The notes beneath the pieces are model-generated. The model was not told the DNA's origin. It saw only the letters and a list, made by a program, of their open reading frames with translations, and ran no database searches. DNA of 64,000 bases from Synechococcus sp. ROS8604. GTDB taxonomy: Bacteria; Cyanobacteriota; Cyanobacteriia; PCC-6307; Cyanobiaceae. The position numbers and the translations under genes were made by a program. Location: positions 1,054,001 to 1,118,000 of the forward strand of contig NZ_CP047946.1 of the NCBI RefSeq assembly GCF_014279655.1, given 5' to 3'. Of the stretch, positions 3,170 to 28,471 are shown piece by piece (position 1 is the stretch's first letter; every line of letters starts with the position of its first letter).

Positions 3170-3230
3170 AAAAAGCCCGAACGCGTCGGGCCGGGGGGTG
3201 TGAGGAGTGTGTGGGCCGAAGCCCCCACCC
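3170..3230 (-). ncRNA. yfr1: Small regulatory RNA Yfr1
   Basis: Read on the minus strand, the gap between guaB3 and trxA has three parts in order: a 5' hairpin (GTGGGGGC-TTCG-GCCCAC), an unpaired stretch holding ACTCCTCAC (complement of 3200-3208), and a terminator hairpin GCCCGA-CGCG-TTCGGGC followed by five T residues (3170-3174). This is the known Yfr1 plan: about 55-65 nt, two stem-loops and a conserved single-stranded CU-rich motif that pairs with target mRNA leaders. The guaB-yfr1-trxA position is also as described for picocyanobacteria. The 5' end is estimated. Confidence 0.88.
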
Positions 3231-23944: not shown

Positions 23945-24258
23945 ATCACACCCATGACATGTCTGCTGTTCATGTGAATGGGTAGGGATCACAGAAGATC
24001 TTCATGCCCTGCAGAGCATCTCTAAGGGGATAAAAGATCGGCTTTTTTAAGCTAAAGATGGTTGTCAAAAGCCCTGCAAGGGCTCGAATCTGCTCGTAAT
24101 CCTATGAGACTCTTGATACGCGCTTTGCAGGTCTATTCAGAAGCAAGAAGCGAAGGCATATTCTTGTCTTTGTGACGCTATTCAGCAGGTGTTATGAATG
24201 ATTGTGTGAAAACTGTCAGGATTAATCTTCCTTCCCTAGGTGGATGCATAGAAAATGA
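23945..24258. other. Gap of 314 bases, no gene seen
   Basis: Just after the helicase stop is an interrupted inverted repeat (ACCCATGACATG against CATGTGAATGGGT, about 23950-23984) without a T tract. A short perfect hairpin AGCCCT-GCA-AGGGCT lies at 24070-24084. A GATCGGCTTTTTT run at 24037-24049 might end a transcript. Short ATG frames on both strands are under 25 codons or antisense to the gene that follows; none is convincing. Confidence 0.5.
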
Positions 24259-24423
24259 TTATTCTTCTGATGCTGTTTGCGGCTCCAGATGCTTGGTGAT
24301 GCACATGGTCACGCAAACGCCATCCTTAAGGTCGCAACTTGTGACGCATTCCAGGTAAGCGTCGACGCTACCCCAGCGCTCTGTGATTGATGAGTGTGAG
24401 TGTCCGGTTGGGATTGCTTTCAT
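24259..24423 (-). CDS. 54-residue twin CX3C protein
   Basis: A small gene with ATG 24423, TAA 24259-24261 and a purine-rich site (GAGAGAAC) seven bases before the start. The protein starts MKAIPTGHSHSSITERWGS and carries four Cys at 26, 30, 37 and 41 in the pattern C-x3-C-x6-C-x3-C, followed by a His-containing acidic tail. Paired CX3C motifs suit a helical hairpin with two disulfides, or a metal site. No membrane segment or signal peptide. I recall no named family, and function is unknown. Natural composition and the Cys pattern argue that it is real. Confidence 0.7.
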   Translation of the reverse strand: MKAIPTGHSHSSITERWGSVDAYLECVTSCDLKDGVCVTMCITKHLEPQTASEE

Positions 24424-24524
24424 CTTGTTCTCTCAAGTGGGTATTGAGTAAGATGATTTTCATTTGCTGGCAAGTAAATGATTGCGATATAAATCGTTCC
24501 TAGGCTTATTTGCTTGCTTTGCAT
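24420..24524 (-). CDS. Possible 34-residue upstream ORF
   Basis: ATG 24524 to TGA 24420-24422, where the stop overlaps the next ATG as ATGA. It encodes a short protein with a hydrophobic middle (SLGTIYIAIIYLPA). No good ribosome site is visible before its ATG. It may be a real leader peptide that couples translation of the twin CX3C gene, or a chance frame. Confidence 0.3.
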   Translation of the reverse strand: MQSKQISLGTIYIAIIYLPANENHLTQYPLERTR

Positions 24525-24591
24525 CAGTGAAGAGTTGTCTTGCCTGCTTACGTGTTTTTTTGTTTGCTTTATATGTGCTTGATCATGCAAT

Positions 24592-24623
24592 AAAAAACCG
24601 CCTGCGCTGATCGCTACAGGCGG
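24592..24623 (-). terminator. Rho-independent terminator, minus strand
   Basis: Inverted repeat CCGCCTG (24598-24604) and CAGGCGG (24617-24623) with a 12-base loop. On the minus strand it is followed by six T residues (complement of 24592-24597). It lies 35 bases downstream of the 27-residue ORF and so probably ends its message. Confidence 0.8.
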
Positions 24624-24658
24624 CCGTTACGAATCGGGTGCTCTTGGCTGTATAGCCA

Positions 24659-24742
24659 TTAATGCATGATATGTGAAAAGCAGAGATGAAATAATGTATA
24701 TGTGAGGATGCCAATTGAGATTGTGGGAACTGTAAAGTTCAT
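24659..24742 (-). CDS. 27-residue hydrophobic membrane peptide
   Basis: ATG 24742, TAA 24659-24661. A strong Shine-Dalgarno AAAGGAG sits five bases upstream of the ATG. The peptide starts MNFTVPTISIGILTYTLFHL and is hydrophobic for about 18 residues with a His/Met end, so one membrane helix is likely. A terminator follows. Size and shape resemble the one-helix subunits of photosynthetic complexes (PetG, PetN, PsbM type), but I cannot match it to any of them. Gene status rests on the ribosome site plus terminator. Confidence 0.6.
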   Translation of the reverse strand: MNFTVPTISIGILTYTLFHLCFSHIMH

Positions 24743-24783
24743 GACTACTCCTTTGGATAACACTAACTTAATAGGAGGTATTC

Positions 24784-24810
24784 ATGCCCTCGGCATCAGC
24801 AACTACATAA
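24784..24810 (+). CDS. Possible 8-codon micro-ORF with strong ribosome site
   Basis: AGGAGGT at 24773-24779 precedes ATG 24784, then eight codons (MPSASATT) and TAA at 24808. The start region is itself an inverted repeat (ATGCC-CTC-GGCAT). A near-consensus ribosome site in front of so short a frame is unusual; it could be a leader peptide, a standby site for the downstream frame at 24898 or 24991, or chance. Confidence 0.25.
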   Translation: MPSASATT

Positions 24811-25325
24811 TTCTTTTAACGAGTAAAAATACCTACTTCTGTTGATTGTTATTGGTTTGATGATGCTTCTGTCGGATGTCTGGTTGACACGGCACAAATG
24901 CTTTTCGTTGATAGGTCTGCTCAATCGCGGCTGCAGGATCTGATGCGATCCTGTTACAGGGCACATACCGGTGGCAATGATGCGACTGTGATGTCGAAGG
25001 CTGCATCTCTATTGTTGTCATTATTTTGCTGCATTTCAATCGCTTTGCTGGCAACTTCGTGGGCCAAATGCATTAATTGTCCTTTTGGGATCGCTTCATT
25101 ATTTGTGGTGCGTGTTTTCGTCATCAGCATCTGATTGATGATCAGTATTAAAAATTTATAGCCTTCCTTTGATGCGGTTTGTATCTATCAATACTCTCCT
25201 TGCTGTAGAGCCCATGAAAAGCCGATTTCTTTTGTTGCTCAGCTGATCATTCCCTGGCAAGAGAGGCTTTGTATCTTGTACTATCTGCGGCGACAAAGGC
25301 GAACAATCTCTTTGTGATCGAAAGG
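24811..25325. other. Sparse 515-base stretch, no confident gene
   Basis: AT-rich. The two longest frames overlap one another on opposite strands (plus 24898-25134, minus 24833-25054); neither has a clear ribosome site and the minus one is compositionally odd (many His, Gln, Pro). The only one worth listing is the 47-residue C-terminal part of the plus frame. No RNA fold recognised. Confidence 0.4.
24991..25134 (+). CDS. Possible 47-residue secreted or membrane peptide
   Basis: From ATG 24991 the frame encodes MSKAASLLLSLFCCISIALL followed by AKCINCPFG and a second hydrophobic end. The N-terminus looks like a signal peptide, perhaps a lipoprotein-like or Cys-containing small exported peptide. 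No convincing Shine-Dalgarno is seen, and the codons may be chance in an AT-rich gap. Confidence 0.25.
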   Translation: MSKAASLLLSLFCCISIALLATSWAKCINCPFGIASLFVVRVFVISI

Positions 25326-25502
25326 TTAGTTCTTCGTTGGTGTCTGTGTACTCGAACGATCAAGCAGCTCAGCAGCCAATAGATCCTTGGCCAGCATCGA
25401 TAAACCCACTCCCATCAGAGCGAGAGCAACGCCTTGATGGGCGTCTGCACTCTTAGATACTTTTCTGGAAAGCTCTAGGTGTTGTTTCCAGGAGAAGTGC
25501 AT
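25326..25502 (-). CDS. 58-residue small helical protein
   Basis: ATG 25502, TAA 25326-25328. The protein starts MHFSWKQHLELSRKVSKSAD and contains a mildly hydrophobic, Ala/Leu/Gly-rich helix (GVALALMGVGLSMLAKDLLA) with a polar Thr/Asn tail. The charged first third and amphipathic helix look protein-like rather than random. No clear ribosome site. I have a loose impression of similar short proteins in other marine picocyanobacteria but cannot verify it. Function unknown; it may associate with membranes. Confidence 0.55.
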   Translation of the reverse strand: MHFSWKQHLELSRKVSKSADAHQGVALALMGVGLSMLAKDLLAAELLDRSSTQTPTKN

Positions 25503-25700
25503 CGATGCCAGGCGTCACAATGCTTTTTAGGCTAATTAGCTGTTTCAATCAAAGGCATAAGCGCTGTTAGGCAATGATCTGTAATAAGCGAAATGTAGTG
25601 AGTTGAGCATGTAATCGTCAAATCGGTTGCAATCACTACCTGATGGATTTGCGTCGTCATTGCTTAAGGGCTAAATTCAGCTCGCCAAGCAAAAAGACCC

Positions 25701-25877
25701 ATGGATCCAATTGCTTTGACTATCGGGCAAATGTTCGAAATCGAGAAGTTTTCAAGAGAGATTGACGGTTCTAAAGACGTTGAGGAGTTGCAATCGATCG
25801 CTAAACAGTTGCTTGTCGCGTGGAAGCAACAGCAAGCAGCATCAGCGTGGATCATTCGTCAGCAACAAGGCCTTTGA
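25701..25877 (+). CDS. 58-residue protein with NblA-like pattern
   Basis: ATG 25701, TGA 25875-25877. Starts MDPIALTIGQMFEIEKFSRE, continues with an acidic turn (IDGSKDVEEL) and a second helix (LQSIAKQLLVAWKQQQAA) ending in WIIRQQQGL. Two helices with L-x3-Q-x-F-x4-F in the first, a short loop, and a C-terminal amphipathic helix at about 58 residues is the plan of NblA, the small adaptor that marks phycobilisomes for Clp proteolysis. Identity is low and this is an inference from pattern and length only. A hairpin follows 26 bases after the stop. Confidence 0.65.
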   Translation: MDPIALTIGQMFEIEKFSREIDGSKDVEELQSIAKQLLVAWKQQQAASAWIIRQQQGL

Positions 25878-25903
25878 ATGCTTCGGAGCACAGCTCTAAG
25901 TTT

Positions 25904-25932
25904 CAAGCAGGAGTGGTTAGTTCTCCTGCTTG
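25904..25932. terminator. Hairpin between convergent genes, possible bidirectional terminator
   Basis: Perfect 10-bp stem CAAGCAGGAG (25904-25913) and CTCCTGCTTG (25923-25932) with a 9-base loop. The T tract is short and broken on the plus strand (ATTTCCTT). It separates the NblA-like gene from the end of the GAP-family gene. Confidence 0.6.
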
Positions 25933-25951
25933 ATTTCCTTCAAGCGTTTGT

Positions 25952-26638
25952 TTAGGTCATGGTGAGGCCACTAATTCCTTGCCAGCCGAGGTAGCCCCCG
26001 ATCCCAATACTGACGGCGGCGACAACCAGTTCTCCACGAGCAAAGAGCACTTCTTTTCCGCGTTCCAATACAGGCACAACTTTGTTGCGGCCAACCGCAA
26101 CGGCGATCAATGGGGTGAGCAGCAAAAGGCTTGCTCCGATGGTGAAGGCCAAAAGACCAATCAGTTCTTGCCATGTAGGCAGTTGGGCCGCCAAGACCAC
26201 CCCTGCTGATTTTGCGAACAGCACGAGATCGTCGGGACTGGCAACTTCCGCCACCGCACCCAACAACAACAGCAGTGGGAGGGGCATGTTTACAAAGCGG
26301 TCCACGCTCGTGGTCCATGCCGGAGGTGAGTCTCCATCGGTCAAGGAGCGCAGCAGCTCCCTACCTCCAACGGCGATTAAGGCTCCACCTGCGAGGAGAT
26401 CCAATCCAGTGCGGTGATGGGAGCCTTGCGTCATGTCCAGCACCAGCGAATGGCCCACGGTGACCAAGAGAACAGATGTCGCCATCGTGGTGATGATCCA
26501 TCCCGCCACGAACCAGCCACCACGTCGCAATGGCTGCGGTCCTAGGAGAAGCAGCAACAACACGGCGATGTGAATCGGGGATAGGCCGATGCCAGTTCCA
26601 TAGGCGAGGAGCTCAGCCCAGAGCGTGGTGTCGCTCAT
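25952..26638 (-). CDS. GAP-family (Sap/LysE-like) membrane protein
   Basis: 228 residues with about six hydrophobic helices. The N-terminus ALLAYGTGIGLSPIHIAVLL-like (AELLAYGTGIGLSPIHIAVL) and the ASPDDLVLFAKSAGVVLAAQL segment match the GAP/Sap family, distant relatives of LysE exporters, known from mycobacterial glycolipid export. Substrate in cyanobacteria is unknown. ATG start 26638. It lies inside the AT-richer accessory stretch and has no operon partner. Confidence 0.75.
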   Translation of the reverse strand: MSDTTLWAELLAYGTGIGLSPIHIAVLLLLLLGPQPLRRGGWFVAGWIITTMATSVLLVTVGHSLVLDMTQGSHHRTGLDLLAGGALIAVGGRELLRSLTDGDSPPAWTTSVDRFVNMPLPLLLLLGAVAEVASPDDLVLFAKSAGVVLAAQLPTWQELIGLLAFTIGASLLLLTPLIAVAVGRNKVVPVLERGKEVLFARGELVVAAVSIGIGGYLGWQGISGLTMT

Positions 26639-26999: not shown

Positions 27000-27326
27000 A
27001 TGAAACGTTTTCTTGTTCTCAGCGGTCTGCTTTTTTCAGCGTCTCCTGCCTTGGCTGATGACGTCCTTTTTCTGGAGTGTAAGACAACCACACGAGCTGT
27101 TTTTACTGAAATTAAAACTCAGAAGCTGATCAAAGAGGAGACAAAAGAAGAAACATTGTTTTTGAAGATTGACCTCGCTAACAATAGGTTTATGTCCCAT
27201 AAAGACAGTCAATGGGATGAAACAGAAATGACAGGCCGTAGCTTAAAAGCTAATCTCAGCAAAAATGAAAACGGTTTGTCGTTAAATGGGAACTTGGGAA
27301 TAGAGGTTATCCGCCAGGTCAATTAA
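27000..27326 (+). CDS. Small exported protein, unknown
   Basis: 108 residues from ATG 27000. A clear signal peptide MKRFLVLSGLLFSASPALA is followed by ADDVLFLEC, so cleavage after ALA is likely. The mature part is beta-rich and charged (KTTTRAVFTEIKTQKLIKEE, FLKIDLANNRFMSHK). One Cys only. No family recognised. It is in the AT-richer stretch and codon composition is less GC-rich than the flanking core genes. Confidence 0.65.
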   Translation: MKRFLVLSGLLFSASPALADDVLFLECKTTTRAVFTEIKTQKLIKEETKEETLFLKIDLANNRFMSHKDSQWDETEMTGRSLKANLSKNENGLSLNGNLGIEVIRQVN

Positions 27327-27456
27327 GCTCAGAGATGGATTTTCTCGCTTGGATGATTGCAACCAAGGTGAATATGAACGGCCATTGCAATGAGGTTAAT
27401 CAGTCTGTATTTGATGCGGCAAGATAATCAGCTGGGGCCCTGGTTAATCTTCTTTT

Positions 27457-27807
27457 TTATTCAGGTGGATTCGCATTTGTATAGCCGTCAATGGTGCTGA
27501 GCAGATGTTTGGTAATGGCGTCAACGCCAATCAGGCGCTCTACCGGTTCTTCTGTGTAGTCGCAATCTTCGTCACCATCGGCATCAAGTTCGCAAGATAG
27601 GCCTTCATAGGTGACAACGAGGGTGGGCGCGCTATCGACTTGAAGCTTTTCTGCAAGGGCGGTGAACCCGCCATCAGGTCCACGTAAGGGAACGAATTCG
27701 AGTGTGGCTTGTTGAGGCTTTGTAAGTGTGTCTACGTACGCTTTGAGTTTTGCGGTGGGTTCGCAATCTGGCAGTGTGAACACGTATAAAACGTACGGCT
27801 TCATCAT
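27457..27807 (-). CDS. Thioredoxin/glutaredoxin-fold protein lacking a CxxC
   Basis: 116 residues from ATG 27807 (an ATG at 27804 is next; a longer frame reaches 27867). It opens MMKPYVLYVFTLPDCEPTAK, where one Cys stands at the usual active-site position with no second Cys in CxxC spacing, and continues with the cis-Pro strand VDSAPTLVV. An acidic insertion CELDADGDEDCDY contains two more Cys. The fold call is an inference from order of strands and helices; a redox role is uncertain. Confidence 0.55.
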   Translation of the reverse strand: MMKPYVLYVFTLPDCEPTAKLKAYVDTLTKPQQATLEFVPLRGPDGGFTALAEKLQVDSAPTLVVTYEGLSCELDADGDEDCDYTEEPVERLIGVDAITKHLLSTIDGYTNANPPE

Positions 27808-27867
27808 GTCCGTGTACCTTTGGTAGGTAGAAATTACCAGTAATCCTGGCAGCTTCTGAACCCGCAT

Positions 27868-28471
27868 TGTAGCGATTGTACGGATGGGAATTCATTCCGT
27901 TGTGATAGTTGACGAACGAAACATATTGGAATTCTGTATTCATTGCTTCTCGCTTGAGAGGCTTGGTCTAGGCATGGATATCCGCCGCTTAAAAGTTTGC
28001 TTGTCTGTGTTGTTTCTTAAGTCTCTTGAAAGGCAGCCTTGCTGAAGGGGCGGTTAACTTGAATGGCGATGGATTAGGGCAGCTGACTCTTGGTGTTTGC
28101 TATTAGTGTGCATTAACGAGTGAGCAAAGTTTGAATAGCTATGCAGCCAAGGCAAACGATGTGCCAACAAAAATGATTTGTTTCATAAAAAAGAACGGTC
28201 GCATTCTCCAAGACCGTCCCTTTTGTATGGAACTAAAACTCCCCAGTCATAGCTCCACAATAAAGATGGCTTAGGGATGGAGAAATGTCCGTAGAGATAC
28301 ATACCCATTTTTCTGTGAGGGTCGGGGTTGGTTCAGCGCAAAAAAGAGTGACGGTCTCCAACGCCACCCTCCCACTGAAGAGATCCAGTCTCTACAGCAG
28401 AAGCTTGAACTGGAAGTCTTGTTTCGTGCATAGAGATACATACGCATTGGCGATAGAACGCTGCCAAGCCT
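27868..28471. other. 604-base gap, no confident gene
   Basis: Contains the hairpin described at 28187-28224 and an imperfectly explained pair of direct repeats TAGAGATACATAC-x-CATT at 28292-28309 and 28431-28448. A frame from ATG 27943 on the minus strand looks protein-like for about 40 codons before running into the thioredoxin-fold gene in another frame. Other frames are under 25 codons or a 68-codon plus frame (28285-28491) without ribosome site. Confidence 0.45.
28187..28224. terminator. Bidirectional terminator-like hairpin
   Basis: Stem ACGGTC (28195-28200) and GACCGT (28212-28217) with an 11-base loop. It is flanked by an A run (28187-28192), giving a T run on the minus strand, and by CCCTTTT on the plus strand. 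No coding gene is assigned directly upstream on either side, so an unannotated transcript may end here. Confidence 0.55.

Follow-up and report, generated by a model that had tools for sequence, protein, structure and literature searches.

An island of small genes in Synechococcus sp. ROS8604 with a putative NblA-like adaptor, a linked gene for its proposed partner and candidate NtcA-type promoters

Marine Synechococcus carry large, nitrogen-rich antennae in nitrogen-poor water, and how they recycle these antennae has been unclear because classical nblA seemed to be missing; the text available from PMC3037559 reports that it was not found in marine cyanobacteria. Does a short, AT-rich stretch of the Synechococcus sp. 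ROS8604 genome hold part of the answer? The stretch, at positions 23945-25932 of a 64,000-nucleotide (nt) region (NZ_CP047946.1, 1,054,001-1,118,000; hereafter the window, whose own coordinates are used throughout), had been singled out in a first-pass annotation as a small-protein island. The host genome is closed and measures 2.88 Mb, and Synechococcus WH7803 is among its relatives within the genus. Five small genes, which we call b2, b3, b5, b6 and b7 (Table 1), occupy the stretch, and we consider it probable, at roughly 0.6, that this is a nitrogen-stress island with an NblA-like adaptor (b7) and a partner (b6), switched by the nitrogen regulator NtcA. An NblA-like gene with predicted nitrogen control and a fixed partner would give the antenna-recycling question a concrete locus; overall, the island appears to hold real genes and a good functional lead, one that is known in part.

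Five small genes under purifying selection

The island, which lies between a RecD-type helicase gene and an SfLAP-family gene, was aligned with its counterparts in seven syntenic genomes that keep both neighbours, giving eight sequences with the window; an eighth relative (G026), in which the same genes are split over contigs, was left out. The alignment consisted of conserved blocks with near-noise stretches between them, and six frames per block were compared for stops and for the ratio of nonsynonymous to synonymous change (dN/dS). Five frames, four on the minus strand (54, 27, 56 and 58 codons) and one on the plus strand (58 codons), contain no stop in any of the eight sequences and show a clear synonymous excess, with dN/dS of 0.04-0.25. 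The opposite-strand frame in mirror phase in each block also has a lowered dN/dS (0.15 to 0.54), yet is interrupted by stops in every case. These five small genes are under purifying selection. That the open reading frames (ORFs) are short, match no Pfam family and yield a single weak and irrelevant NCBIfam match (for b7) would suit chance frames in intergenic DNA, but the frame-specific synonymous excess, the lack of stops across eight genomes and the failure of the mirror frames in the same test leave that explanation a nearly negligible chance.

The ORF list for the interval holds two frames of 54 codons and three of 58. For b3 the list begins at a TTG and gives 34 amino acids (aa); counted from the ATG, the gene has 27 codons, and its coding support is weaker because it is short. 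For b5 we moved the start two codons downstream of the listed ATG, to the one position where each of the eight sequences has ATG or GTG. Two plus-strand frames were rejected as genes. The 54-codon frame that mirrors b2 has 2 stops, a dN/dS of 0.34 and a 5' part that is not conserved, and the dN/dS of 0.20 in its 3' half, which overlaps b2, is the mirror effect; the 78-codon frame that mirrors b5 has 20 stops across the eight sequences and a dN/dS of 0.57.

The idea of a small-protein island is borne out by the synonymous-site signal in five frames. The at least four short genes foreseen in the first-pass annotation (54, 27, 58 and 58 codons) are real, although there are five of them and one has 56 codons. 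The island is also AT-richer than its neighbours, as had been claimed: G+C is 0.439 and 0.452 in the two kilobases of 24001-26000, against 0.593 and 0.603 in the preceding two kilobases and 0.535 in the following one. The kilobase at 27001-28000 is equally AT-rich (0.452).

The NblA-like protein b7 and its linkage to b6

By profile comparison b7 belongs to a divergent NblA-like family, and it is not a member of the Pfam NblA family (PF04485). Aligned with hhalign, the b7-family and NblA profiles match with a probability of 88.6 and a score of 34.7 (probability 87.5 in a repeat with other rows), compared with maxima of 3.8 and 17.0 for 40 column-shuffled NblA profiles and a probability of 0.1 for the reversed profile, establishing distant homology of the b7 family to NblA at the profile level. 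The predicted structure of b7 is a two-helix hairpin (helices 8-23 and 27-55; mean confidence, pLDDT, 91), and a two-helix hairpin of about 55-65 residues is the plan of NblA. The profile alignment is in register from an N-terminal L-[ST]-x-x-Q-x-F motif at 16% identity: b7 keeps the L, T, Q and F of the LTMEQ-type motif, named for NblA in the accessible part of PMC5083919, and has glycine in place of the LTxEQ glutamate. Furthermore, a related protein in G001 matches both the b7 profile (4e-12) and, with 42 of 50 positions aligned, the Pfam NblA model (E 0.0066), and the NblA structure 1ojh ranks third, in register, in a sequence-profile search (E 0.74). The protein b7 resembles NblA in length, helical plan, motif register and profile-level similarity, and differs in falling below Pfam recognition, in its low identity, in the glycine substitution and in being linked to b6. 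Among the PHROGs, b7 falls in phrog_27081 (function unknown), as do 34 of 44 family members, and among viral models it hits an uncharacterised protein of phages best (E 9.9e-4).

Members of the b7 family are present in 194 of the 300 genomes of its taxonomic family. PF04485 exceeds its cut-off in none of 37 genomes of this taxonomic family and in 20 of 23 outside it, a gap that the b7 family would fill. Among the best 80 of 162 relatives, b7-like genes lie in Cyanobium and Synechococcus contigs, both marine and freshwater. WH7803 has the b6-b7 pair (L184, record CT971583), with b7 at 844862-845035 on the minus strand and b6 at 845233-845373 on the plus strand, positions taken from G010, which shares its coordinates. 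Relatives of b7 were also found in 38 IMG/VR viral contigs. Neighbours were viewed in eight of these (ten proteins): in six contigs phage genes can be recognised, for instance those for terminase, primase, helicase, ribonucleotide reductase or endolysin; the matches in L285 are all to families of unknown function, and those in L266 are to DNA methyltransferases and a phage family whose function is likewise unknown. A relative of b7 in the cyanophage S-SCSM1 is annotated as a phycobilisome degradation protein, a weak match (E 0.09). The b7-family contigs filed under Flavobacteriales, Blastopirellula and Bifidobacterium metagenome-bin names (L178, L180, L181 and L243) are probably misbinned cyanobacterial DNA. 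In three contigs (L250, L235 and L193) an unpaired b7-family gene stands tail to tail with one gene, which by eye we take to encode an HtrA-type protease. One of them, L235, is from Synechococcus sp. SynAce01, which carries this b7-family gene, with no b6 in the stretch examined, though its genome paper, as far as its text was available (PMC6337551), describes nblA as lacking.

Papers that cite Nadel et al. (2019) credit that study with describing divergent NblA-like genes in picocyanobacteria and in marine cyanomyoviruses. The available passages of PMC7439483 and PMC9602691 already report NblA-like genes in marine Synechococcus and cyanophages, and in the latter the nblA genes of cyanomyoviruses are placed together with those of picocyanobacteria. 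An NblA-like b7 is in line with these reports as excerpted; it may be one of the genes they describe, which it resembles in its weak S-SCSM1 match and its viral relatives. In those passages no partner gene or shared promoter is mentioned, unlike the arrangement of b6 and b7. The first-pass annotation had ranked the stretch first in the window as a candidate for undescribed biology; that view has to be narrowed, since NblA-like genes are on record, and it stands for b6, the divergent promoter with its geometry, b2, b3 and b5, of which we found no mention in the accessible portions of the literature searched.

The gene b6 is linked to b7 in the genome. In a first set of loci, fetched through b7 or window DNA, all 19 that hold b7 also have b6, transcribed divergently and 182-200 nt away. 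A reverse test started from b6 and covered 40 of 103 b6 places, skipping most of those already collected or with a b7 match listed nearby (five of the 40 proved to be loci already collected); a b7-family gene adjoins b6 in 31 of the 40, divergently in 29 and in tandem in 2. Over the comparisons from the b7 side and the b6 side together, the tandem order occurs at five distinct loci. No b7-family gene adjoins the other nine b6 places (L344-L352); each of these holds a weak relative of b6 (E 1e-6 to 1e-10), possibly a separate paralog. None of the 38 viral contigs has a paired b7, and b6 was not found in viral contigs. As for b6 itself, no Pfam or NCBIfam family matched it, its relatives gave weak single-member Pfam matches, and its model is a helical hairpin of modest confidence (pLDDT 67). 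A relationship of b6 to b7 or NblA was considered and dropped (probability 0.4). The wider neighbourhood also failed as a clue: it differs among ten loci viewed by eye, where no antenna genes were recognised.

Promoter patterns, proposed function and alternatives

The spacer between b6 and b7 is conserved and non-coding. It is 196-200 nt long in window-type relatives (the exception, L068, has 182), is about 87% identical to the window in six close relatives, and differs among relatives at about 12% per site, against 49% at b7 synonymous sites, so the spacer is itself under constraint. In 36 unique window-type spacers GTTGCAANNACTAC stands out. This 15-base motif form is present in 18 of 40 genomes (17 of 25 of the genus and one of another family), occurs once in each of those 17 and by coordinates always lies at the b6-b7 spacer; read backwards, it has nine matches in the 40 genomes. 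In 35 of the 36 spacers GTTG-N6-CTAC is followed by TAN3T 31-33 nt downstream (22 nt in L068). More diverged b6-b7 pairs carry, at the corresponding place, GTN10AC exactly 21 nt before TAN3T in 41 of 44 unique spacers (20 of 20 first seen, then 21 of 24 new, with five duplicates dropped) and in 28 of 30 clusters at 75% identity, and 24 of the 44 have the strict form. Resampled spacers gave means of 0.91 (maximum 4) and, for the strict form, 0.01 (maximum 1), and the opposite strand gave none. These promoter-like patterns are far above chance.

The diverged spacers resemble the promoter form activated by NtcA in class II fashion, as given in the available text of PMC3898017 and PMC9430850, in GTN10AC, the 21-nt distance and TAN3T. 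The window b7 promoter differs from that form in having GTT for GTA and about 10 nt more distance, and it retains the relaxed GTN10AC, which passages of PMC6166021 give as a later definition of the NtcA site; GTT forms are among the putative NtcA sites listed for WH7803 in the accessible part of PMC9430850. The simplest account would be an NtcA promoter whose site has moved by one helical turn. A further b7-family gene of the host genome (L304) has the strict NtcA promoter form upstream, as do 12 of 113 unpaired b7-family entries, a count that includes viral entries and repeat fetches of the same locus.

A second candidate precedes b5. On both strands of the whole window, GTAN8TAC-N20-24-TAN3T has one match, directly before b5, with GTAN8TAC, 22 nt and TAN3T as in the published class II form so far as the text of PMC3898017 and PMC9430850 was available. 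GTN10AC-N22-TAN3T is present in all eight island sequences, the strict form in three. NtcA most likely turns on b5 from this canonical site of its own. When the island was scanned for GTAN8TAC with TAN3T 20-34 nt away, the only hit common to window and relatives was the one before b5, and the scan gave no common hit that would link b2 or b3 to nitrogen.

We propose that the island is a small-gene cluster, at least part of which would respond to nitrogen shortage. NtcA, binding the site in the b6-b7 spacer, most likely activates b7 upon nitrogen starvation. The product would act as an adaptor of NblA type: this helical hairpin of 58 aa most likely captures phycobilisome proteins and delivers them to a Clp protease, which would let the cell recycle its antenna for amino acids. 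Transcribed the opposite way from the same spacer, b6 most likely encodes a partner or brake of the adaptor; a joint function of the two products may be what keeps the genes adjacent. Occurrence speaks for the proposal. With PF00427 linker genes as a phycobilisome marker (at least two in 187 of the 300 genomes, none or one in 113), b6 is present in 85 of the 187 genomes but in none of the 113, and the b7 family in 181 of the 187 and 13 of the 113. A bolder version is tentative, with the odds against it: b6 and b7 might form a two-part targeted-proteolysis switch, an NtcA-driven adaptor and a small partner or anti-adaptor sharing a promoter region, which would have replaced classical NblA in phycobilisome-bearing picocyanobacteria and, with b5, would make up an unannotated small-protein nitrogen-response arm.

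Several results weigh against the proposal of an NtcA-switched adaptor of the antenna. The profile of b7 orthologs alone matches NblA with a probability of only 45, so the NblA claim rests on the wider b7 family. No Pfam family matches b7, and PF04485 misses it. Of 44 family members, only 6 hit the Pfam NblA model at E up to 1 (best 0.02), while Imm32, an unrelated family, is hit by 8 (best 0.0074), in our view by chance; single-sequence searches therefore do not single out NblA. A Foldseek search of b7 against the PDB returned one unrelated chain and no NblA, a result that, with a two-helix hairpin as query, does not exclude NblA. With GTT in place of GTA and 32 nt, instead of about 22, between site and -10 box, the b7 promoter in the window is not of canonical NtcA form, and 3 of the 44 diverged spacers lack GTN10AC-21-TAN3T. 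In named contigs the b7 family is paired with b6 in only 27 of 83 cases. The occurrence contrast follows few lineages and is uncorrected for descent, its Fisher values not being probabilities. The b7 relatives in the 13 low-linker genomes are weak (E no better than 1.1e-6), and because of them some b7-family members may not serve phycobilisomes.

Alternatively, b7 could be a nitrogen-regulated protease adaptor of NblA descent with a target outside the phycobilisome, such as an enzyme of nitrogen or carbon metabolism. The weak relatives in low-linker genomes would fit such a target, as would the glycine in the LTxEQ motif of b7 and the five family members in the host genome, two of which are weak there (the profile E of the four others is at most 3e-9). 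However, all 85 genomes with b6 have at least two linker genes, every b7-family match better than E 1.1e-6 is in a genome of that kind, and relatives occur in cyanophages, for which NblA-like proteins are reported in the literature as excerpted above; we regard a different target as unlikely. An unrelated toxin-antitoxin or phage-defence pair would account for a linked gene pair, each member about 58 codons long, in differing neighbourhoods and for b7 relatives in viral contigs. Such a pair is very improbable given that neither gene matches PADLOC or Pfam at the thresholds used, that the arrangement is mostly divergent and not operonic (29 of 31), that the promoter is of NtcA type and that b6 was not found in viral contigs. 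A similarly slight chance attaches to the spacer encoding or carrying a structured RNA with an incidental promoter-like pattern: its high identity in close relatives and nearly constant length would be expected of such an RNA, but no Rfam family reaches threshold inside the spacer, the consensus fold has four pairs with no compensatory change on either strand, and the 21-nt spacing is identical in all 41 patterned spacers. The preferred reading remains that of an NtcA-switched, NblA-like adaptor with b6 as its partner.

Further features of the island and its surroundings

Table 1. Features of the island, in window coordinates
Feature	Position	Strand	Evidence or remark
Mirror of b2, not a gene	24194..24358	+	stops, lost conservation
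b2, 54 aa, two CX3C motifs	24259..24423	-	dN/dS 0.14, no stops in 8 sequences
Conserved non-coding block upstream of b2	24425..24504		alignment
Rho-independent terminator of b3 transcript	24592..24624	-	stem then six T, fold z -3.1
b3, 27-aa hydrophobic peptide	24659..24742	-	dN/dS 0.23, no stops in 8 sequences
Mirror of b5, not a gene	24898..25134	+	stops, dN/dS
b5, 56 aa	24954..25124	-	dN/dS 0.25, no stops in 8 sequences
Putative canonical NtcA-type promoter of b5	25153..25194	-	GTATTGATAGATAC (25181-25194), 22 nt, TAAATT (25153-25158)
b6, 58 aa, putative partner protein	25326..25502	-	dN/dS 0.20; adjoins b7-family genes
Conserved non-coding b6-b7 spacer	25503..25700		no frame behaves as coding
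Candidate -10 box of b6, TACATT, weakly supported	25592..25597	-	promoter scan no better than shuffles; largely conserved
NtcA-like site of putative b7 promoter	25626..25639	+	GTTGCAATCACTAC
Candidate -10 box of b7, TAAATT	25672..25677	+	32 nt after NtcA-like site; TAN3T conserved
b7, 58 aa, NblA-like protein	25701..25877	+	dN/dS 0.04, profile match to NblA
Hairpin between convergent b7 and SfLAP-family gene	25904..25932		arms 25904-25913, 25923-25932

The b2 family is present in all 37 genomes of this taxonomic family and none of the 23 outside it (60 searched), with one to four matches per genome; it is often multicopy, and L305 and L306 are further twin-CX3C small proteins. No Pfam or NCBIfam match was found for b2. 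The hyper-conserved picocyanobacterial protein PSHCP was rejected as its identity, PSHCP being strongly basic and devoid of zinc-fold cysteines according to the available text of its paper. The non-coding block upstream of b2 has a mean identity to the window of 81-87% in six relatives, compared with 49-54% just outside it; an imperfect inverted repeat (CATTTGCT ... AGTAAATG, by eye) lies within it at 24461-24480. In the same 60 genomes, b3 has matches in 9 (E below 1e-8) and b5 in 8 (E below 1e-9).

Both the terminator and the convergent hairpin that had been predicted for the island are supported by folding. The fold of the b3 terminator was equalled by 2 of 200 shuffles, and relatives show a similar stem and T run by eye. 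An Rfam NsiR4 match at 24595-24659 on the minus strand was rejected: it scores 20.9 bits against a threshold of 40 and sits on this terminator. The hairpin between b7 and the SfLAP-family gene has 10-base arms and 11 pairs in the fold, with z of -4.5 and -4.8 on the two strands. A consensus scan of the region found 3 promoters against 6.0 in shuffles and 1 terminator against 5.4, and did not list the two fold-supported hairpins.

The description of the neighbours as unknown up to 28.5 kb is only partly right, since 25952-26638 is a clear member of PF11139 (SfLAP). Beyond it lie a plus-strand gene at 27000-27326, whose product by eye resembles a secreted protein, and a minus-strand gene at 27457-27867, which is weakly thioredoxin-like (PF13098, E 0.003, below cut-off). 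Of the seven syntenic relatives only L061 has these two genes, so the DNA past the SfLAP-family gene varies as well. Two copies of a 23-nt direct repeat, 87% identical and 139 nt apart, lie at 28287-28309 and 28426-28448. Elsewhere in the window, the small RNA Yfr1 is found at 3172-3228 on the minus strand (67.9 bits against a threshold of 38).

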